DNA of 46,333 bases from the NCBI GenBank assembly GCA_037382465.1, contig JARRPX010000008.1, positions 1 through 46,333 on the forward strand. Reading direction: 5' to 3'. The notes beneath the pieces were generated by a model. The model saw only the letters and a program-made list of their open reading frames with translations, was not told the origin of the DNA and did no database searches. Shown piece after piece: positions 21,510 to 30,138 of this stretch (position 1 is the stretch's first letter; every line of letters starts with the position of its first letter). The position numbers and the translations under genes are program-made. This DNA comes from Anaerolineales bacterium (lineage in GTDB: Bacteria > Chloroflexota > Anaerolineae > Anaerolineales > E44-bin32).

Positions 21510-23477
21510 GTGGAACGGAGCTCTTCGGTGTGGAATGGTGTCCGTATCACTCTCTTCTTGCTGGCCGCAATGGCGATTGGCGCCTGTCAGCCGCCGCAGG
21601 ACGTCGATTTGCCGCTTACGATCGACGGTTCGAAAACGGCGACGCCGATCGTCGAACCGACGCCGGAACCACCGCCTCCGAAAACCCTTTTTGTCTGTCT
21701 GAACCAGGAGCCCGCTTCGCTCTACATTTACAACCCACTGTATTTCAGTGGAGATTCCAGCGGGGAAGCGGATGCCGTTCTCCAGGCACTGTATGATGGA
21801 CCGATCGACATCGTCGATTACCAGCCTGAAGCGGTCATTCTGGACGGCCTGCCGAATCTCGCCCGAGGGGAAGATGCCCGCCTGGAAGAAGTTGCGGTAC
21901 ACACCGGAGAACTCTATTACAATCCGAAAACCATGCAGCCGGAGGTCCTCGCATACGGCAAGGAGTATCTTCCCTCCGGATGTGCGGGATCGGATTGTCT
22001 GCTTACCTACACCGGCGGCGAGGTCTTCATGCCGCGCATGATCGTCGAATTTCATCTGCTGCCCGGTTTGACCTGGTCGGACGGTTCTCCGCTGACGGCG
22101 CAGGATTCGGTCTACTCCTTCGAACTCGATCGCAACGCCGACACGAACTCGATCAAATATCTGGTGGATCGCACCCACTCCTACGAGGCGCTGGACGACG
22201 ACTTGAGTGTCCGTTGGACGGGAATTCCCGGCTTCATCGACGCCGAATACAAGACGAACTTCTGGTCCCCTTTGCCGAAGCACGTTCTCGAGAGTTTCAC
22301 GCCCGAAGAACTACTAACAGCAGATGCCGCCAATAAAGACATCCTGGGATGGGGCCCCTATCAAATCGATTCGTGGTCCGCAGGCCAGCAGATCGTGATG
22401 ACACCCAACCCGTACTATTTTCGTGCTTCCGAAGGGCTGCCCAAGTTCGATCGCCTGATCTTCCGCTTCCTGGGGGCGGATGGGAACGCGGCCATCCAAC
22501 AGTTGCTTACCGGAGAATGCGATATCCTCGACGAATCCCTGATCCCGGACCAGGCGCTGCCTTCGCTGATCGATCTGCAGCAGTCTGGTGAGCTGTCGAT
22601 CGTGGACGGGCCCGGTTTGTATCTCTTCCGGATGGACTTCAATCTATCTCCCGTGGGGCAGGAATTCGATAAGGGTCTCTTTGCCGACGCGCGCACGCGG
22701 CAGGCCATCGCGGGCTGTATCGATCGTGAAAGCCTCGTGCAGGATATCTTTTACGGTCTCGCATCCATCTCCAATACCTACCTCTCACCTGATTATCCGG
22801 CCTATGCCGGCGATCTTGATTTCGTCGCCTACGACGTTGAAGCCGCTCAAGCGACCCTCGACGCATTGGGATGGATCGATACTGACGGCCTGCCCGAGAC
22901 CGCCAGAGTGGCGCAAGGTGTGCCCGGGGTGTCTTTCGGAACACCGCTTTCCTTCAGTTACAGGACGACTGCGGGTGTCTTCAACGAGGCGCTGGCCGAG
23001 TACATCCAGGCGGAGCTCTCCGTTTGCGGCGTCGAGATGACGATCGAATACGAAGATGCTTCCACGTTTACCGCCCCATGGCCCGACGGACCGATTTTCG
23101 GCCGCGGTTTCCAAACGGTCGGCTGGGCCTGGTTGGACTGGTGGACCCCGCCGTGCGAGATGTTCGCCGGGCGAGAGATTCCCTCCGCCACGTATGAGAA
23201 TGGCAGCAATGCCAGTGGCTTCGACAATCTGCAATATAATGCCGCATGTGAGCAAATCTTGTTGGGAGCACCGGAAACGCAAACCTATCAAGATGCCGTC
23301 TTGCTTACCCAACAAGTGTTTGCACAGGAAATACCCGCCGTTCCACTCGCCATTCCGGCGCGGATAATGGTGGCCAACACCGATGTTTGTGGATTCGACT
23401 TCGTGCCCCTGGCGGACAGCGGCTTGTGGAACATCGAATCAATAGATTCGGGGGACGGTTGCGATAGTGAATCTTGA
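21510..23477 (+). CDS. Peptide ABC transporter binding lipoprotein (family 5), conventional domain order
   Basis: A 655-residue solute-binding lipoprotein. I place the start at GTG 21510 because GGAGGA lies five bases upstream and gives a normal signal peptide (VERSSSVWNGVRITLFLLAA, then MAIGAC with Cys26); a second start at ATG 21471 has GGGGGA upstream. Domain order is the usual one: domain I with PASLYIYNPLY and LTWSDGSPLTAQDSVYSFEL (about residue 187), GWGPYQIDSWSAGQ, then the family block ADARTRQAIAGCIDRESLVQ near residue 391, and the C-terminal closure. It binds oligopeptides, nickel chelates or sugars in this family. It lies upstream of oppD, separated by 294 bases with a promoter. Confidence 0.9.
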   Translation: MERSSSVWNGVRITLFLLAAMAIGACQPPQDVDLPLTIDGSKTATPIVEPTPEPPPPKTLFVCLNQEPASLYIYNPLYFSGDSSGEADAVLQALYDGPIDIVDYQPEAVILDGLPNLARGEDARLEEVAVHTGELYYNPKTMQPEVLAYGKEYLPSGCAGSDCLLTYTGGEVFMPRMIVEFHLLPGLTWSDGSPLTAQDSVYSFELDRNADTNSIKYLVDRTHSYEALDDDLSVRWTGIPGFIDAEYKTNFWSPLPKHVLESFTPEELLTADAANKDILGWGPYQIDSWSAGQQIVMTPNPYYFRASEGLPKFDRLIFRFLGADGNAAIQQLLTGECDILDESLIPDQALPSLIDLQQSGELSIVDGPGLYLFRMDFNLSPVGQEFDKGLFADARTRQAIAGCIDRESLVQDIFYGLASISNTYLSPDYPAYAGDLDFVAYDVEAAQATLDALGWIDTDGLPETARVAQGVPGVSFGTPLSFSYRTTAGVFNEALAEYIQAELSVCGVEMTIEYEDASTFTAPWPDGPIFGRGFQTVGWAWLDWWTPPCEMFAGREIPSATYENGSNASGFDNLQYNAACEQILLGAPETQTYQDAVLLTQQVFAQEIPAVPLAIPARIMVANTDVCGFDFVPLADSGLWNIESIDSGDGCDSES

Positions 23478-23771: not shown

Positions 23772-24758
23772 TTGGCAAATAAACTCCTCGAAGTCAAAGA
23801 TCTAGTGACCCGATTTTACACACCCGAGGGTGTGGTTCACGCTGTCAACGGAATGTCGTTCAACTTAGATGAGGGGGAAACGCTCGGAATTGTTGGAGAG
23901 AGCGGGTGTGGAAAGAGTGTTTCTGTGCTTTCCATTTTGCGGTTGATTCCCAATCCGCCAGGTAAAATTGAACAGGGCGAAGCCATCTTCCTGGGCAGGG
24001 ACTTACTGCAACTCCCAATCGATGAATTGCGACAAGTGCGGGGGAAGGAAATCGGGATGATCTTCCAAGACCCGATGACGTCGCTCAATCCTGTGATGAC
24101 CATCGAGCACCAGTTGGCCGAGCCGATGCTCGAACACATGGGGATGTCAAAGCGTGATGCACGCGATCGGATCATCGAACTGCTTCAAATGGTGGGCATT
24201 CCCAACCCTGCGGAGCGAATCACGGAATATCCGCATCAATTTTCAGGCGGCATGCGCCAGCGGGCGATGATCGCCATGGCGCTGTCGTGCAACCCCAAGA
24301 TTCTCATCGCAGATGAGCCCACAACGGCGCTCGATGTGACCATCCAAGCCCAGATTGTGGATCTGGTCAACCAGCTCCAAGACAAATTGGGCATGGCAAT
24401 CATCTGGATCACCCACGATCTGGGTGTAGTGGCTCGCCTGGTGGATCGCGTTGTGGTGATGTATGCCGGCTATCCGGTCGAAAGAGCGTCCGTAAAGGAT
24501 ACGTACGGCAACCCACGTCATCCATATACGATTTCACTGCTGCGGTCTTTACCCAGGATTGATGAACAGCGGGAGGATCGTCTGGAGAATATCGAAGGAC
24601 GGCCTCCCGATTTGTTTGAGGAACCGGATTTCTGTCCTTTTGCTCCACGCTGCCCCTTCGTGCAGGACAAATGTTGGCAGGAAAATCCCGGTATGCGTTC
24701 GGTCGGTGAAAACCACGAGATCGCTTGCTGGTTTGACGTTACCAAAGACGATTTGTAA
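23772..24758 (+). CDS. oppD: Oligopeptide/dipeptide ABC transporter ATP-binding protein (OppD/DppD type)
   Basis: A 328-residue ATPase. Walker A is GESGCGKS, the signature is QFSGGMRQR, Walker B is [12 protein letters not shown], and the switch histidine is in WITHDLGVV. The C-terminal extension carries the Cys-rich motif [16 protein letters not shown], found in this subfamily, where it may hold an iron-sulfur cluster. The start is TTG 23772, five bases after GGAAGAGG. It powers import by the two permeases at 27946 and 29065 together with the paired ATPase that follows. The spacing to the next gene is 26 bases. Confidence 0.95.
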
Positions 24759-24784: not shown

Positions 24785-25786
24785 GTGAAGGCAAATTCGA
24801 ATACAGCGAAGAAAAGCAACGAAGTCATCATCCGAGTCGAGAACTTGAAGAAGTACTTCCCAATCGAGCGAGGCTTATTCCGCCGTCAGGTCGGCGCAGT
24901 GCAGGCCGTTGACGGCATCTCGTTCGAGATTCGCCGCGGAGAGACGTTGGGATTGGTGGGCGAAAGTGGGTGTGGAAAATCTACCACCGGCCGCACCATG
25001 CTGCGCTTGTACGAGCCCACGGAGGGGAAAGTCTTCTTCGGAGATGTGGAAGTAACCGCATTATCTCGCAATGAAATTCGCAGCTTTCGACCCCACATGC
25101 AGATGATTTTCCAGGACCCCTATGCGTCCCTCAACCCGCGCATGACGGTAGGCGAGCTGATCGGCGAGCCGCTGCTCATTCATACACCTATGACTTCGAG
25201 TGAACGCAACGAAAAAGTGGCGGAATTGCTTGAACTTGTGGGGTTGAATCCGCGTTTCTCGGTGCGTTACCCACATGAGTTCTCCGGCGGGCAAAGACAA
25301 CGCATCGGAGTCGCTCGGGCATTGGCGCTCAGCCCTGAATTTGTGGTCGCCGACGAACCGATTTCCGCTTTGGACGTGTCAGTCCAGGCACAGGTGGTCA
25401 ATCTGCTTGAAGACCTTCAAGACAAGTTCAGCTTTACCTACCTCTTCATTGCCCACGACTTGAGTATGGTTCGGCATATTGCCAACCGTGTTGCTGTGAT
25501 GTATCTGGGGAAGTTGGTGGAAATTGCCAAAGGTAAGGACTTGTACTCAAATCCACTGCATCCCTATACGCAAGCCTTGTTGTCGGCTGTACCCATCCCG
25601 GATCCAGTTATCGAGGAGACTCGTTCCAGGATCATTCTCTCCGGTGATGTGCCCAGCCCTGTTTCGCCTCCATCCGGTTGCCGCTTTCATACACGTTGCC
25701 CGATTGCTGAAAAAATCTGCTCTGAGGAAGAACCTCTACTCAGACAATTAGAACCTGACCACTGGGTTGCCTGTCATTTGGCATAG
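24785..25786 (+). CDS. oppF: Oligopeptide/dipeptide ABC transporter ATP-binding protein (OppF/DppF type)
   Basis: A 333-residue ATPase, partner of the preceding one. It starts with [17 protein letters not shown] and [15 protein letters not shown], the typical OppF opening. Walker A is GESGCGKS, the signature is EFSGGQRQR, Walker B is [12 protein letters not shown], the switch region FIAHDLSMV. The C-terminus holds [15 protein letters not shown], the OppF Cys motif. Its start is GTG 24785. With OppD it forms the nucleotide-binding heterodimer. The gene ends 136 bases before the binding-protein gene, and that gap contains a short hairpin and an unusually strong Shine-Dalgarno sequence. Confidence 0.95.
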
Positions 25787-25922
25787 GCACAACCCCGATC
25801 GTAGAGATCGAAAGGAGGTGATGGTATCGGGGTGATAGGAATGACTGCAGGTTTAGGAGTATCCGTACAAATTAACACTCGTAACATGTTGTTCCTCATA
25901 ACGAACTCTGAAGGAGGAGAAA

Positions 25923-27875
25923 ATGTCGAGAAAGCACCTTTTTTGGACTTTAGTCTTGCTTGCTGCGCTTAGTGTGTTCGTAGCAGGATGTGCCAAGCAA
26001 GCAGTTGAGACCGTAATAGTCGGTGGTGAGGTCGTTGTTGTGACGGCCACTCCCAAGCCGGGCGAAGAGCCCTGCGACAACCCCTTCCTGGGAAGCTGCA
26101 AGCTTGACGGGAACGGCATCCCACCCGATTTCTTCTCGGATGTACACGTGCGCAAAGGTTTCAATTACTGCTTTGACTGGGATACGTTCATCCGAGATGC
26201 CTGGGCCGGTGAAGCCATTCAGAACGTCGGCTATCTGATCCCCGGCATGGTTGGCTATGAGCCGGACGGCCCGCACTACACTTACGATCTTGATAAGTGT
26301 GCCGAAGAGCTCTCCCTGGCTTGGGACGGCGCGGTGGCGGAGAACGGCTTCCGCATGCAGATCGCCTACAACACGGGTAACATGGAACGCCAGACGGCGG
26401 CCGAGATTCTGCAGGCCAATCTGAGTGAAGTCGACGAGCGCTACATCGTCGAGATCATCGGACTTCCGTGGCCGTCATTCCTGGAGAACTACCGCAACAG
26501 CCGTATCCCCGTGAACATCTCGGGCTGGCAGGAAGACCTTCACGACCCGCACAACTGGGCGCAGCCATTCTTGGTGGGCACGTATGCCAGCCGCCAGAAT
26601 CTGCCGGAAGATCTGCTGGCGCAGCTCAAAGAGTTGGTCACCAAGGGCGTTTCCGCCACAACGGATGCGGCGCGTGCAGAGGCTTACCACGAGCTGAACC
26701 AGATCGATTACGACCAGGCAATTGCCATCCGCCTGGTGGTTCCCACCGGACGAGCCTGGATGCAGAAGTGGGTTGAAGGATATTACTACAACCCAATCCA
26801 GGATCTTGCTGCCCGTTGGAAATCGCTCTCGAAGACCTCTGCTGCAGCTGACCCGACGACCATCACCTACGCAACGATCGGTGATGTGGACACGCTGGAC
26901 CCGGCTTGGAACTACGAGAACTTCGGTGACAACGTGATCCTCAACACCTACGAGCAGTTGGTGACCTACGATGGCAAGTCGGCGACCACCTTCGTGCCGC
27001 TCTTGGCGGAAGAGTACAGCATCTCCGACGACGGCATGACCTACACCTTCAAGATCCGCGACGGTGTGAAGTTCCACGAAGGCCAGGACCTGACGGCCTC
27101 CGACGTGGAATACACCTTCGAGCGCGGCATCCTCCAGGGTGGAACCTGGTCACCGCAGTGGCTATTCACTGAGCCGTTCTTCGGCACCGGTGTCTACGAC
27201 ATCGCCGAACTGGTGGATCCCTCTGGCGCGCTGGATGATGCGCCGGAAGATCTTCAGGCTGCGGACTCCGCTGCCCTGATGGCGGCTTGTGAACAGATCA
27301 CGGGTCAGATCGAATCCGATGATGCTGCGGGCACCGTCACCATGACATTGTCGCAGCCATGGGCTCCCTTCCTGGCCACACTGGCACAGAGCTGGGGATC
27401 CATCCTCGATAAAGACTGGGCTATCGAAAACGGGACCTGGGATGGTGATTGTGCAACCTGGCAGGATTACTACGGTATCGACTCGGCAACCTCACCGATC
27501 CGCGACGTCGTCAACGGGACCGGCCCCTACATGCTCGATCACTGGGAACCGGGCGTGGAAGTCGTCGTAACCAGGTTCGATGGTTACTGGGGTGACGCAC
27601 CGGCCCTCGAGCGCGCGGTTTGGGCGGAAGTAGACGAGTGGGGCACACGCTTCGCCATGGCGAAAGCCGGCGATGCCGATCTGGTTTACGTGCCTCGCGA
27701 GTTCGTCGATCAGGTCACACCGTACGCGGCGACAGTATGTCCGTGGGATTCTGCCCAGCAAGTTCACGTCTGTGAAGATGTGGCAGGCGCTGAAGATCAA
27801 CCGCTGATCGTTTATTACGGTCATCCGACGACCTATCGCGCTGACGTATTCTTCGTTTGGGACGTGGCTCACTGA
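25923..27875 (+). CDS. Circularly permuted peptide-binding lipoprotein (ABC transporter family 5)
   Basis: A 650-residue lipoprotein (lipobox V-A-G-C, Cys23), start ATG after GGAGGAG. Its domain order is reversed. Residues about 52-304 are the part that is C-terminal in relatives: DVHVRKGFNYCFDWDTFI (74-91), then the lobe II helices to WVEGYYYNPIQDLAARW. Residues about 310-650 are the normal N-terminal part: ITYATIGDVDTLDPAWNYEN, then FHEGQDLTASDVEYTF (384-399) and GTGPYMLDHWEPG (532-544), ending in YRADVFFVWDV. The new ends lie at the loop that follows the hinge strand between the lobes; the old ends join at 304-310. The other binding protein in this window (21510) has the normal order. All three junctions are in frame. 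Codon choice is strongly C-ending, as in highly expressed genes. Two extra cysteines (51, 59) flank the new N-terminal join. A misassembly is possible but would need three in-frame breaks. Confidence 0.88.
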   Translation: MSRKHLFWTLVLLAALSVFVAGCAKQAVETVIVGGEVVVVTATPKPGEEPCDNPFLGSCKLDGNGIPPDFFSDVHVRKGFNYCFDWDTFIRDAWAGEAIQNVGYLIPGMVGYEPDGPHYTYDLDKCAEELSLAWDGAVAENGFRMQIAYNTGNMERQTAAEILQANLSEVDERYIVEIIGLPWPSFLENYRNSRIPVNISGWQEDLHDPHNWAQPFLVGTYASRQNLPEDLLAQLKELVTKGVSATTDAARAEAYHELNQIDYDQAIAIRLVVPTGRAWMQKWVEGYYYNPIQDLAARWKSLSKTSAAADPTTITYATIGDVDTLDPAWNYENFGDNVILNTYEQLVTYDGKSATTFVPLLAEEYSISDDGMTYTFKIRDGVKFHEGQDLTASDVEYTFERGILQGGTWSPQWLFTEPFFGTGVYDIAELVDPSGALDDAPEDLQAADSAALMAACEQITGQIESDDAAGTVTMTLSQPWAPFLATLAQSWGSILDKDWAIENGTWDGDCATWQDYYGIDSATSPIRDVVNGTGPYMLDHWEPGVEVVVTRFDGYWGDAPALERAVWAEVDEWGTRFAMAKAGDADLVYVPREFVDQVTPYAATVCPWDSAQQVHVCEDVAGAEDQPLIVYYGHPTTYRADVFFVWDVAH

Positions 27876-27895: not shown

Positions 27896-27924
27896 ACCTG
27901 CAGGGGATATTATCCCCTGCAGGT
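27896..27924 (+). terminator. Stem-loop between binding protein and permease genes
   Basis: Nearly perfect 14-base palindrome (ACCTGCAGGGGATA with TATCCCCTGCAGGT) followed by TCTCCTTT. Such hairpins commonly protect or partly terminate binding-protein transcripts, making them more abundant than the permease transcripts. Confidence 0.75.
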
Positions 27925-27945: not shown

Positions 27946-29010
27946 ATGTCGACATATATCCTGAGACGGGTTTTACTTCTTCCGTTGTTGTTGATCGGGA
28001 CGACGATTTTGATCTTTGGGATGCTCTCTTTTCTGACCCCGACAGAGCGGAGCGCGCTTTGGGTTCAGAATATTCCCAGGAACGAACGCCAGGTTGAAGG
28101 CATTATCCGGAAGTACGGCCTGGATAAGCCGATTTACGTTCAGTACTATATCTGGCTGGTGGGCAATAAAGATCCGGAAACGGGAGAATACGAAGGTGGT
28201 TTGCTGCGAGGGGATTTAGGTTACGCACGTTCTGCTTCCCAGCCCGTGATGGACATCATCAAAGCGCGACTCCCGAACACACTCGACCTGGCAATCTGGA
28301 GTGTGCTGCCCATCGTGTTGATCGGCGTCTTATTAGGTGTTCTTGCCGCTATCAATCATAACCGTTTAATCGACCAGTTTGCGCGGGTTTTCAGCATATT
28401 AGGCTGGTCTTTTCCTACATTTGTCTTCGCACTCGTCGTATTAATGATTTTTTACGCCGGATTGGGGTGGTTCCCGCCAGGACGGGTATCTGATTGGGCC
28501 AATCAGGTCATCTTGTCGGGGGAGTTCCGTACCTATACACATATACTCAGCCTCGACTCGCTCTTGAACGGCCGCTTCGATATCTTCATCGACGTTATCC
28601 GTCATATGATCCTGCCCGTCATAACCTTGTCCTATCTCAACTGGGCTTTGATGTTACGCGTGACTCGTTCCTCGATGTTGGAGGCTCTTCGCCAGGAGTA
28701 CGTAACGACGGCACGCTCCAAGGGCTTGAAGGAGTCGGTTGTCATCTTTCGTCATGCACTGCCTAACGCCTTGATCCCCGTGGTTACGATCGCTGGCTTC
28801 ACCATCGTGGCTTTATTGAACGGCGTCGTGATCACCGAGACCATTTTCAATTACCCCGGTATCGGGCGGGCGGCGGCACGCGCGGCTTTGAATCTGGATG
28901 TGGTGGGCATCCTCGGTCTCACGCTCTTCAACGGCTTGATTTTGATCGTCGCCAATCTGGTCGTCGACGTGCTGTATGCCGTTGTTGACCCACGTGTACG
29001 GCTTTCATAA
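27946..29010 (+). CDS. oppB: Peptide ABC transporter permease (OppB/DppB type)
   Basis: A 354-residue membrane protein of the binding-protein-dependent transport family. The N-terminal MSTYILRRVLLLPLLLIGTT helix is typical of DppB/OppB. The loop KYGLDKPIYVQYYIWL, six hydrophobic segments, and the EAA motif in EYVTTARSKGLKESVVIFRH are present, followed by ITETIFNYPGIGRAA. It pairs with the next gene to form the transmembrane channel. The extended first loop is normal for family members. AGGAGGTGA lies directly before the ATG at 27946, one of the strongest start signals in the window. Confidence 0.95.
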   Translation: MSTYILRRVLLLPLLLIGTTILIFGMLSFLTPTERSALWVQNIPRNERQVEGIIRKYGLDKPIYVQYYIWLVGNKDPETGEYEGGLLRGDLGYARSASQPVMDIIKARLPNTLDLAIWSVLPIVLIGVLLGVLAAINHNRLIDQFARVFSILGWSFPTFVFALVVLMIFYAGLGWFPPGRVSDWANQVILSGEFRTYTHILSLDSLLNGRFDIFIDVIRHMILPVITLSYLNWALMLRVTRSSMLEALRQEYVTTARSKGLKESVVIFRHALPNALIPVVTIAGFTIVALLNGVVITETIFNYPGIGRAAARAALNLDVVGILGLTLFNGLILIVANLVVDVLYAVVDPRVRLS

Positions 29011-29064: not shown

Positions 29065-30138
29065 ATGGAAAACCAGAAGATCAACAAGGATGAGTTGAAG
29101 AAAATAGAACGCCGTAAACAATTGCTGGAAGTGACTCTGGATGGACTTCCAGAACGAAAGATAAGTCGTCTTGAGCGCGCATTGGGACCTGAGCCTTACC
29201 GGATATTGAAGGGATTGGTCACCAATCCTCTATCGATTGCGGGTTTTCTCATTCTGGCGATTTTCATCTTTATCGCCGTCGCCGCTCCGGTACTCGCGCC
29301 TCCCCGTAAAGCGGCGACTGCGTATCGCATTCCCCGGGATGGGTTTCACCCTACGCCGCAGGAACCCGGAACGGTTTGGGAAAGCCGTCCGCCACCGGTG
29401 CCGTTTTGGTATGAGCCAATAACCGGCAAAGAGGAATGGATTCACTTGCTCGGAACGACGAGCGGACAGTGGGACATCTATTACGGCATCATTTGGGGAA
29501 CGCGTACGGCGTTCAAGGCCGGCCTTACGGTTACGATAGCAGTCGTCGTCATTGGTATTCTGACCGGTTCTATTTCGGCATATTACGGCGGAAGAATCGA
29601 CAACGTAATCATGCGCATTACGGATATCTTCATGTCCTTCCCCTTCTTTTTGGCCGCGCTTACCCTGTCGACGATTCTCACGCCCAAAATGGGACGCAGT
29701 ATTTTTCCGGCCATTGTTGCCTTGATCGCATTTGGTTGGATGGGTTATGCGCGCCTGGTGCGCGGCGACATCCTTTCAGTGAAAGAGCGCGACTACGTCA
29801 TGGCTGCGCGGGTCGTTGGCGCAGGCGATCGGCGTATTTTGTTCCGTCACATTTTGCCCAACGCCATTTTCCCAACGCTGGTCGTCGCTTCCATGGACGT
29901 TGGCACCTACGTGCTCAGCTTCGCAGCCTTGAGTTTCCTCGGCGTCGGCACCGAAGTGGGATACGCCGACTGGGGCCAAATCATCTCCTTTGCCAGAGAT
30001 TGGATCACCGATTTGGCGGACTACTGGTTCGTGGTAGTCTATCCCGCTTTGGCGATCGTGTTCTTTGTCCTGGCGTGGAATCTCATCGGTGATGCCGTAC
30101 GCGATCTCTTCGATCCGCGCTTACGCGGCACGACATAA
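29065..30138 (+). CDS. oppC: Peptide ABC transporter permease (OppC/DppC type)
   Basis: A 357-residue membrane protein. A charged, roughly 50-residue cytoplasmic N-terminus (RLERALGPEPYRILKGLVTN, then PLSIAGFLILAI) is typical of OppC. A long first periplasmic loop of about 90 residues, with HLLGTTSGQWDIYYGIIWGTR (the family's L-G-T-D-x-x-G-R-D motif in altered form), precedes the core helices. The EAA motif is RDYVMAARVVGAGDRRILF, followed by FRHILPNAIFPTLV. The LGTTSGQWDIYY variant replaces the usual Asp and Arg residues. It is the last gene of the operon; a stem-loop follows. Confidence 0.95.
   Translation: MENQKINKDELKKIERRKQLLEVTLDGLPERKISRLERALGPEPYRILKGLVTNPLSIAGFLILAIFIFIAVAAPVLAPPRKAATAYRIPRDGFHPTPQEPGTVWESRPPPVPFWYEPITGKEEWIHLLGTTSGQWDIYYGIIWGTRTAFKAGLTVTIAVVVIGILTGSISAYYGGRIDNVIMRITDIFMSFPFFLAALTLSTILTPKMGRSIFPAIVALIAFGWMGYARLVRGDILSVKERDYVMAARVVGAGDRRILFRHILPNAIFPTLVVASMDVGTYVLSFAALSFLGVGTEVGYADWGQIISFARDWITDLADYWFVVVYPALAIVFFVLAWNLIGDAVRDLFDPRLRGTT

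Follow-up and report, generated by a model that had tools for sequence, protein, structure and literature searches.

The gene at positions 25923-27875 of the window (the whole 46,333-nucleotide stretch of DNA analysed here) raises the question of whether a family-5 solute-binding lipoprotein can occur in nature with its chain circularly permuted. The gene is an intact open reading frame of 650 residues. The original prediction, made from the letters alone, described it as a native permutant in which VRKGFNYCFDWDTFI precedes FHEGQDLTASDVEYTF. Both blocks were found at the claimed residues (76-90 and 384-399), as were GTGPYMLDHW (532-541), NPFLGS (53-58), FFSD (70-73), and YRADVFFVWDV (638-648). 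In the second binding protein of the locus, the two block types stand in the opposite order, with LTWSDGSPLTAQD at residue 187 and RTRQAIAGCIDRESLV at residue 395, the latter one residue off the claim. The Pfam stretch in that protein covers residues 206-578, corresponding to profile positions 19-356 (open reading frame numbered from 21429). The junction of the old termini at 304-310 and the cut after the hinge strand of the permuted protein were both as described, and the strong ribosome-binding site that had been claimed was located (Table 1).

Pfam SBP_bac_5 (PF00496, Cluster C) was the sole Pfam match of the 650-residue protein; it scored 194.7 bits (cut-off 32.4) and was split into two stretches. 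The best one (residues 357-598) corresponds to profile positions 2-185; the N-terminal part of the profile thus falls in the protein's second half. Residues 71-292 match E. coli DppA 276-496, and residues 306-401 and 467-590 match DppA 23-124 and 160-267 (precursor numbering). Block HMMs, built for eight blocks, read the protein as c1-c2-c3-n1-n2-n3-n4-n5. By Pfam, block HMMs, and DppA alignment, the usual family-5 order is therefore cyclically rotated; this usual order is typical of the family, not strictly defining. The ordinary orthologues, with identity up to 69%, have the N-part first and the C-part second. The DppA equivalog NF043070 was not reached (98.4 bits versus a curated cut-off of 1005), and no Type I / Cluster B fold like that of TpMglB-2 was indicated. 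The gene is a native circular permutation of a family-5 (SBP_bac_5) binding lipoprotein, as supported by the block-HMM order, the same order in independent genomes, and one confident predicted fold. Lipid anchoring and export of the protein are indicated by motif only (signal helix, VAGC 20-23). Its linker (residues 24-52) resembles the linker that precedes the N-part in ordinary orthologues (VVVTATPxPxE).

Table 1. Features of the permuted gene and its operon in the window.
Feature	Positions	Strand	Evidence
Second family-5 binding protein of the locus, ordinary order	21510-23477	+	one collinear Pfam stretch
oppD/dppD-type ABC ATPase	23772-24758	+	NCBIfam best hit OppD PRK09473, below cut-off; synteny
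oppF/dppF-type ABC ATPase	24785-25786	+	NCBIfam NF008453, above cut-off
Shine-Dalgarno AGGAGG, ATG 5 nt downstream	25912-25917	+	sequence
Circularly permuted family-5 solute-binding lipoprotein, order A (650 aa)	25923-27875	+	intact ORF; PF00496 in two stretches; block-HMM order
Lipoprotein signal peptide, lipobox VAGC = residues 20-23	25923-25991	+	sequence motif; model helix 3-22
Tether linker, low confidence, residues 24-52	25992-26078	+	junction table; pLDDT about 50-56
Former C-terminal part, now first, residues 53-304	26079-26834	+	residues 71-292 match DppA 276-496
Joint of old C-end and old N-start, SKTSAAADPTT, residues 303-313	26829-26861	+	
Former N-terminal part, now last, residues 308-650	26844-27872	+	residues 312-640 match DppA 1-266
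oppB/dppB-type permease	27946-29010	+	NCBIfam best hits Opp2B/NikB/Opp4B, below cut-off
oppC/dppC-type permease	29065-30138	+	NCBIfam best hits Opp4C/Opp2C, below cut-off

The original prediction proposed that relatives be searched for the same order, and the order of the window gene (order A) was found in dozens of Anaerolineae. In a first survey with one genome per species, most close relatives had the N-part followed by the C-part; L007, L008, and L010 had the window's order from the signal peptide onwards, at about 52-54% identity. A single match crossing the joint was found in about 40 of 400 genomes from the same taxonomic order (counted by rows). In a class sample, a model of the joint region detected permuted genes in 12 of the 396 genomes, over at least 202 of its 228 positions and with more than 336 bits. 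Ordinary genes matched this model over about half its length with less than 214 bits, a clean separation from the permuted ones. The window is a 46-kb contig from a draft genome of 126 contigs, which leaves room in principle for an assembly artefact. This explanation has practically no chance: dozens of independent assemblies share the order at about 50% identity, one of them (G331) with the order-A gene inside a 4,145,241-base contig, and the frames, signal peptide, and ribosome-binding site are all intact. Misassembly of the gene is ruled out by these independent genomes. In its own genome the gene is a single copy without an ordinary twin, and the remaining matches reach at most 37% identity over fragments. 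A close genome carrying the same sequence in ordinary order would have refuted the prediction; none was met, and none of the relatives in ordinary order exceeds 69% identity.

AlphaFold2, run with 62 sequences, gave the 650-residue protein a mean pLDDT of 91.7 and a pTM of 0.84. In sequential alignment, family-5 structures were matched by residues 304-640 of the model alone, and only over their first half (Z about 22-24); placement of one half only is what a circular permutation requires of sequential aligners. The model of an order-C protein (see below; pLDDT 84.5, pTM 0.81) was aligned at residues 94-493 with DppA 138-535, giving 323 residues at 2.1 A and ending at the joint. The two-lobed, three-domain fold is thus supported by model only, and two folding models are no proof of assembly in the cell. 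Halves that fail to form one fold were the other outcome that would have refuted the prediction; the model is instead one confident fold. On this basis, the chain very probably folds into the usual two-lobed binding protein despite the permutation, with the old C- and N-ends fused via a very short loop and the new ends in the loop after the hinge strand. With the new ends there, the lipid tether would exit on the hinge side, not at the old N-terminus.

The natural ends of family-5 proteins lie in one lobe, and the joint extends only a few residues beyond them. This arrangement argues against a domain-swapped dimer, in which the halves would pair between chains instead of within a monomer, and so does the confidence of the single-chain AlphaFold2 model across the joint (pLDDT 86-97). 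Such a dimer has only a slim chance, although family 5 has a precedent in AliC, a domain-swapped dimer according to the title of entry 8qlh.

Ka/Ks values of 0.06-0.14 between closely related permuted pairs indicate strong purifying selection. The window gene sits on a long branch (0.5 changes per column), which might raise the suspicion of a decaying or non-functional rearranged gene, but such decay or loss of function is very improbable given the purifying selection among permuted relatives, the intact frame, the single genomic copy, the conservation across genera, and the confident model. The ligand-contacting D408 of DppA aligns with the conserved D205 of the permuted protein. For R355, another ligand contact of DppA, no residue of the permuted protein could be clearly assigned when the two were aligned, and the ligand therefore need not be a dipeptide. 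We infer that the gene product is a working binding protein; its import function is likewise inferred, without binding data.

The prediction had also placed the gene in an opp operon, and OppB/C-type permeases and OppD/F-type ATPases are indeed encoded alongside, as judged by NCBIfam and synteny. Between the stop codon of the permuted gene and oppB, a perfect 13-bp inverted repeat with a 3-nt loop was observed (27896-27924). It is possibly an attenuator or an mRNA-stabilising hairpin that sets the binding protein above the permease. The layout oppD-oppF-SBP-oppB-oppC is common to the ordinary genes, order A, and L013 (order B). In L125 (order B) oppDF is divergent, and in order C the permeases lie downstream (SBP-oppB-oppC). 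Owing to the common operon position, orthologous replacement at a single locus is the best interpretation of the topologies, rather than separate paralogous systems. One genome (G144) has a second homologue in ordinary order about 8 kb from its permuted gene. In another (G014, L134:5170-5880), the oppF frame before the order-A gene has merely 236 residues, the result of a frameshift, a truncation, or an assembly error. Very probably, the gene in the window encodes the membrane-tethered binding protein of an OppABCDF/DppABCDF-type importer in circularly permuted form, and represents an operon gene that was re-cut repeatedly in the Anaerolineae.

This one operon gene was found in five cyclic orders in the Anaerolineae, namely the ordinary order and the permutations A, B, C, and D. 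Block-HMM ordering of complete proteins gave 85 ordinary, 35 order A, two order B, two order C, and one order D; no non-cyclic order was seen among the complete proteins classified in this way. Order B (L013, L125) starts at VWDTGF and ends after KCAEEF. Order C (L103 and L105, complete; L102, partial) starts just before NGTGP and ends at GGWDGTC. Order D is represented by L127, and L064 shares the D-type ending. In all complete permuted proteins, the lipoprotein signal peptide and a low-complexity linker still precede the rotated chain. The A proteins all share one cut loop. Every complete permuted order is an exact cyclic rotation with the old ends joined.

At the joint, no more than a few residues separate the natural C-end (YYYxxSK) from the natural N-start (xPTTFxxATIGDxDTLDPA) behind it. 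The length of the joint is nearly constant and its motif is similar across the permuted lineages A, B, C, and D. With ordinary proteins, the match to the joint model either stops at about position 104-105 or begins at about 103-107. This break at about position 105 indicates that the joint runs from natural end to natural start, with nothing substantial added. SKD microhomology at both ends was considered as a recombination site and found to be unsupported; extra residues stay between SK and DP.

For phylogenetic analysis, the permuted proteins were rotated back and then placed with the ordinary ones. Careful whole-protein trees needed seven or eight order changes. Order A appears four times among the ordinary orthologues, with four forced by well-supported branches; the four lineages are that of the window, L007 with L008, G014, and a large Anaerolineales clade. 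AU tests rejected a single clade for all A proteins (p 9e-74), as well as the pairings of the window with G014 (p 5e-5), of the window with L007/L008 (p 4e-7), and of G014 with the large A clade (p 8e-57). One origin for B was allowed (p 0.45). In both the N-half and the C-half tree, the window gene falls within the ordinary L009/L012/L017 group; these trees needed four and five changes for A, respectively. A hybrid of two paralogues was ruled out by this concordance. The oppB tree is weak and compatible; no more than two origins of A are forced by its strongly supported branches, and the window oppB is not beside that of L009. Some tree placements are less certain because of long branches (0.5 changes per column for the window, 0.46 for G014, 0.9 for L125, and 0.8 for L127). 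Trees by themselves cannot separate gain from loss of a permuted order. Gains are the simpler reading, since the permuted lineages branch from within a large set of ordinary ones, and the ordinary order prevails in the family as a whole.

The main rival to repeated re-cutting is that one or very few permutations or C-to-N fusions took place, and that transfer, recombination with ordinary genes, or reversion mimics recurrence. Joints of almost the same length and with related motifs recur in A, B, C, and D, a possible sign that there were fewer fusions than the trees indicate; the cut loop is the same in all A proteins, and B possibly has one origin. However, this likeness of the joint is explained by direct fusion of the natural ends with nothing inserted, the AU tests reject one A clade and the three pairings, and both half trees place the window gene with the same ordinary orthologues, so it is no hybrid. 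A small number of origins therefore keeps a modest chance. Repeated re-cutting is the likely course: one orthologous gene at one operon position would have undergone at least seven order changes with four cut points, the hinge loop being cut four times, and the fold and importer would accept the tether and ends at several places. The recurrent hinge-loop cut and the constant joint length probably reflect tolerated end sites and the closeness of the natural ends. We infer that the permutation is tolerated because these ends lie close together.

The route of origin is inferred, and permutation by duplication (PMC3320104) is most likely, as the best-fitting model. By this route, the gene would first have been duplicated in tandem, or its copies fused, in frame; the upstream N-part (behind the linker) and the downstream C-part would then have been lost, with the signal peptide and linker kept. 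Two ordinary copies stand in tandem in some genomes. One such pair in a single opp operon (L044, 4660-6792 and 6883-9057), whose two SBP genes are sisters in the tree, suggests that the raw material for duplication is present. No double-length, half-duplicated, or partial intermediates were found among the classified SBP open reading frames.

SBP frames of 973-1274 residues were considered as duplicated intermediates and rejected, since they are kinase-SBP, WD40-SBP, and regulator-SBP fusions. L185:2791-6012, L186:3120-6197, L187:3379-6540, L188:3135-6302, and L189:1-2922 (about 1,030-1,070 residues; L189 incomplete) look like a serine/threonine kinase joined to an ordinary-order family-5 domain. 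They belong to the Anaerolineales family f14, with Pfam confirmation for L185 and L188, and are possible ligand-sensing kinases. L184:965-4564 combines a WD40 propeller with a family-5 binding domain, its frame open at the contig end. In the window's own genome (G000:C3), L190:2616-6440 encodes a 1274-residue BTAD/AAA_16 regulator with a C-terminal family-5 binding domain.

A natural circularly permuted binding protein has been described in another class, the 'Type Ic / Cluster Bc' protein TpMglB-2 (Tp0684) of Treponema pallidum (PMC4990184). Like the Anaerolineae protein, it is a membrane-tethered ABC-importer binding protein whose natural permutation is conserved in relatives (PMC4990184), and it binds ligand although permuted (PMC4990184). 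It differs in its Type I / Cluster B sugar-binding fold, with one topology described, whereas the Anaerolineae protein belongs to family 5. Conservation of its permuted portion is low, and this portion may derive from a different gene (PMC4990184); in contrast, both halves of the Anaerolineae protein are clearly homologous, with up to 69% identity, to ordinary orthologues of the same operon. With DppA, OppA, and NikA (PF00496, Cluster C), the Anaerolineae protein shares homology of both halves, the two-lobed fold (by model), an OppBCDF-type operon, and the equivalence of D408 and D205; it differs in its rotated chain and in the lack of a clear match to R355. The DNA methyltransferases are a classical fold with several natural cyclic orders, and their permutation by duplication has been reviewed (PMC3320104). 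There, permutations separate families and intermediates are documented, whereas in the Anaerolineae they distinguish orthologues that occupy the same operon position within a single bacterial class, and no intermediates were found.

In the open-licence literature searched, no report linked circular permutation to OppA, SBP_bac_5, or Anaerolineae binding proteins, and none described repeated permutation of one operon gene. The earlier statement that no native permutant was known thus holds for family 5 within the literature searched, and has to be qualified by TpMglB-2 for binding proteins of another class. As far as this literature extends, natural permutation is already known in another class and the family-5 case is unreported.

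Pfam counts the permuted proteins as ordinary family-5 members. As permuted scaffolds already tried by nature, they could help biosensor design. New chain topologies in evolution are usually inferred from single ancient cases; with five cyclic orders among orthologues of one operon gene, the steps, the cut-point preferences, and the functional cost become directly comparable. The authors of the TpMglB-2 study suggested that permuted binding proteins have adapted in this way to being anchored in the membrane (PMC4990184). In the Anaerolineae gene, the exit point of the tether varies between the orders, which makes this suggestion testable.
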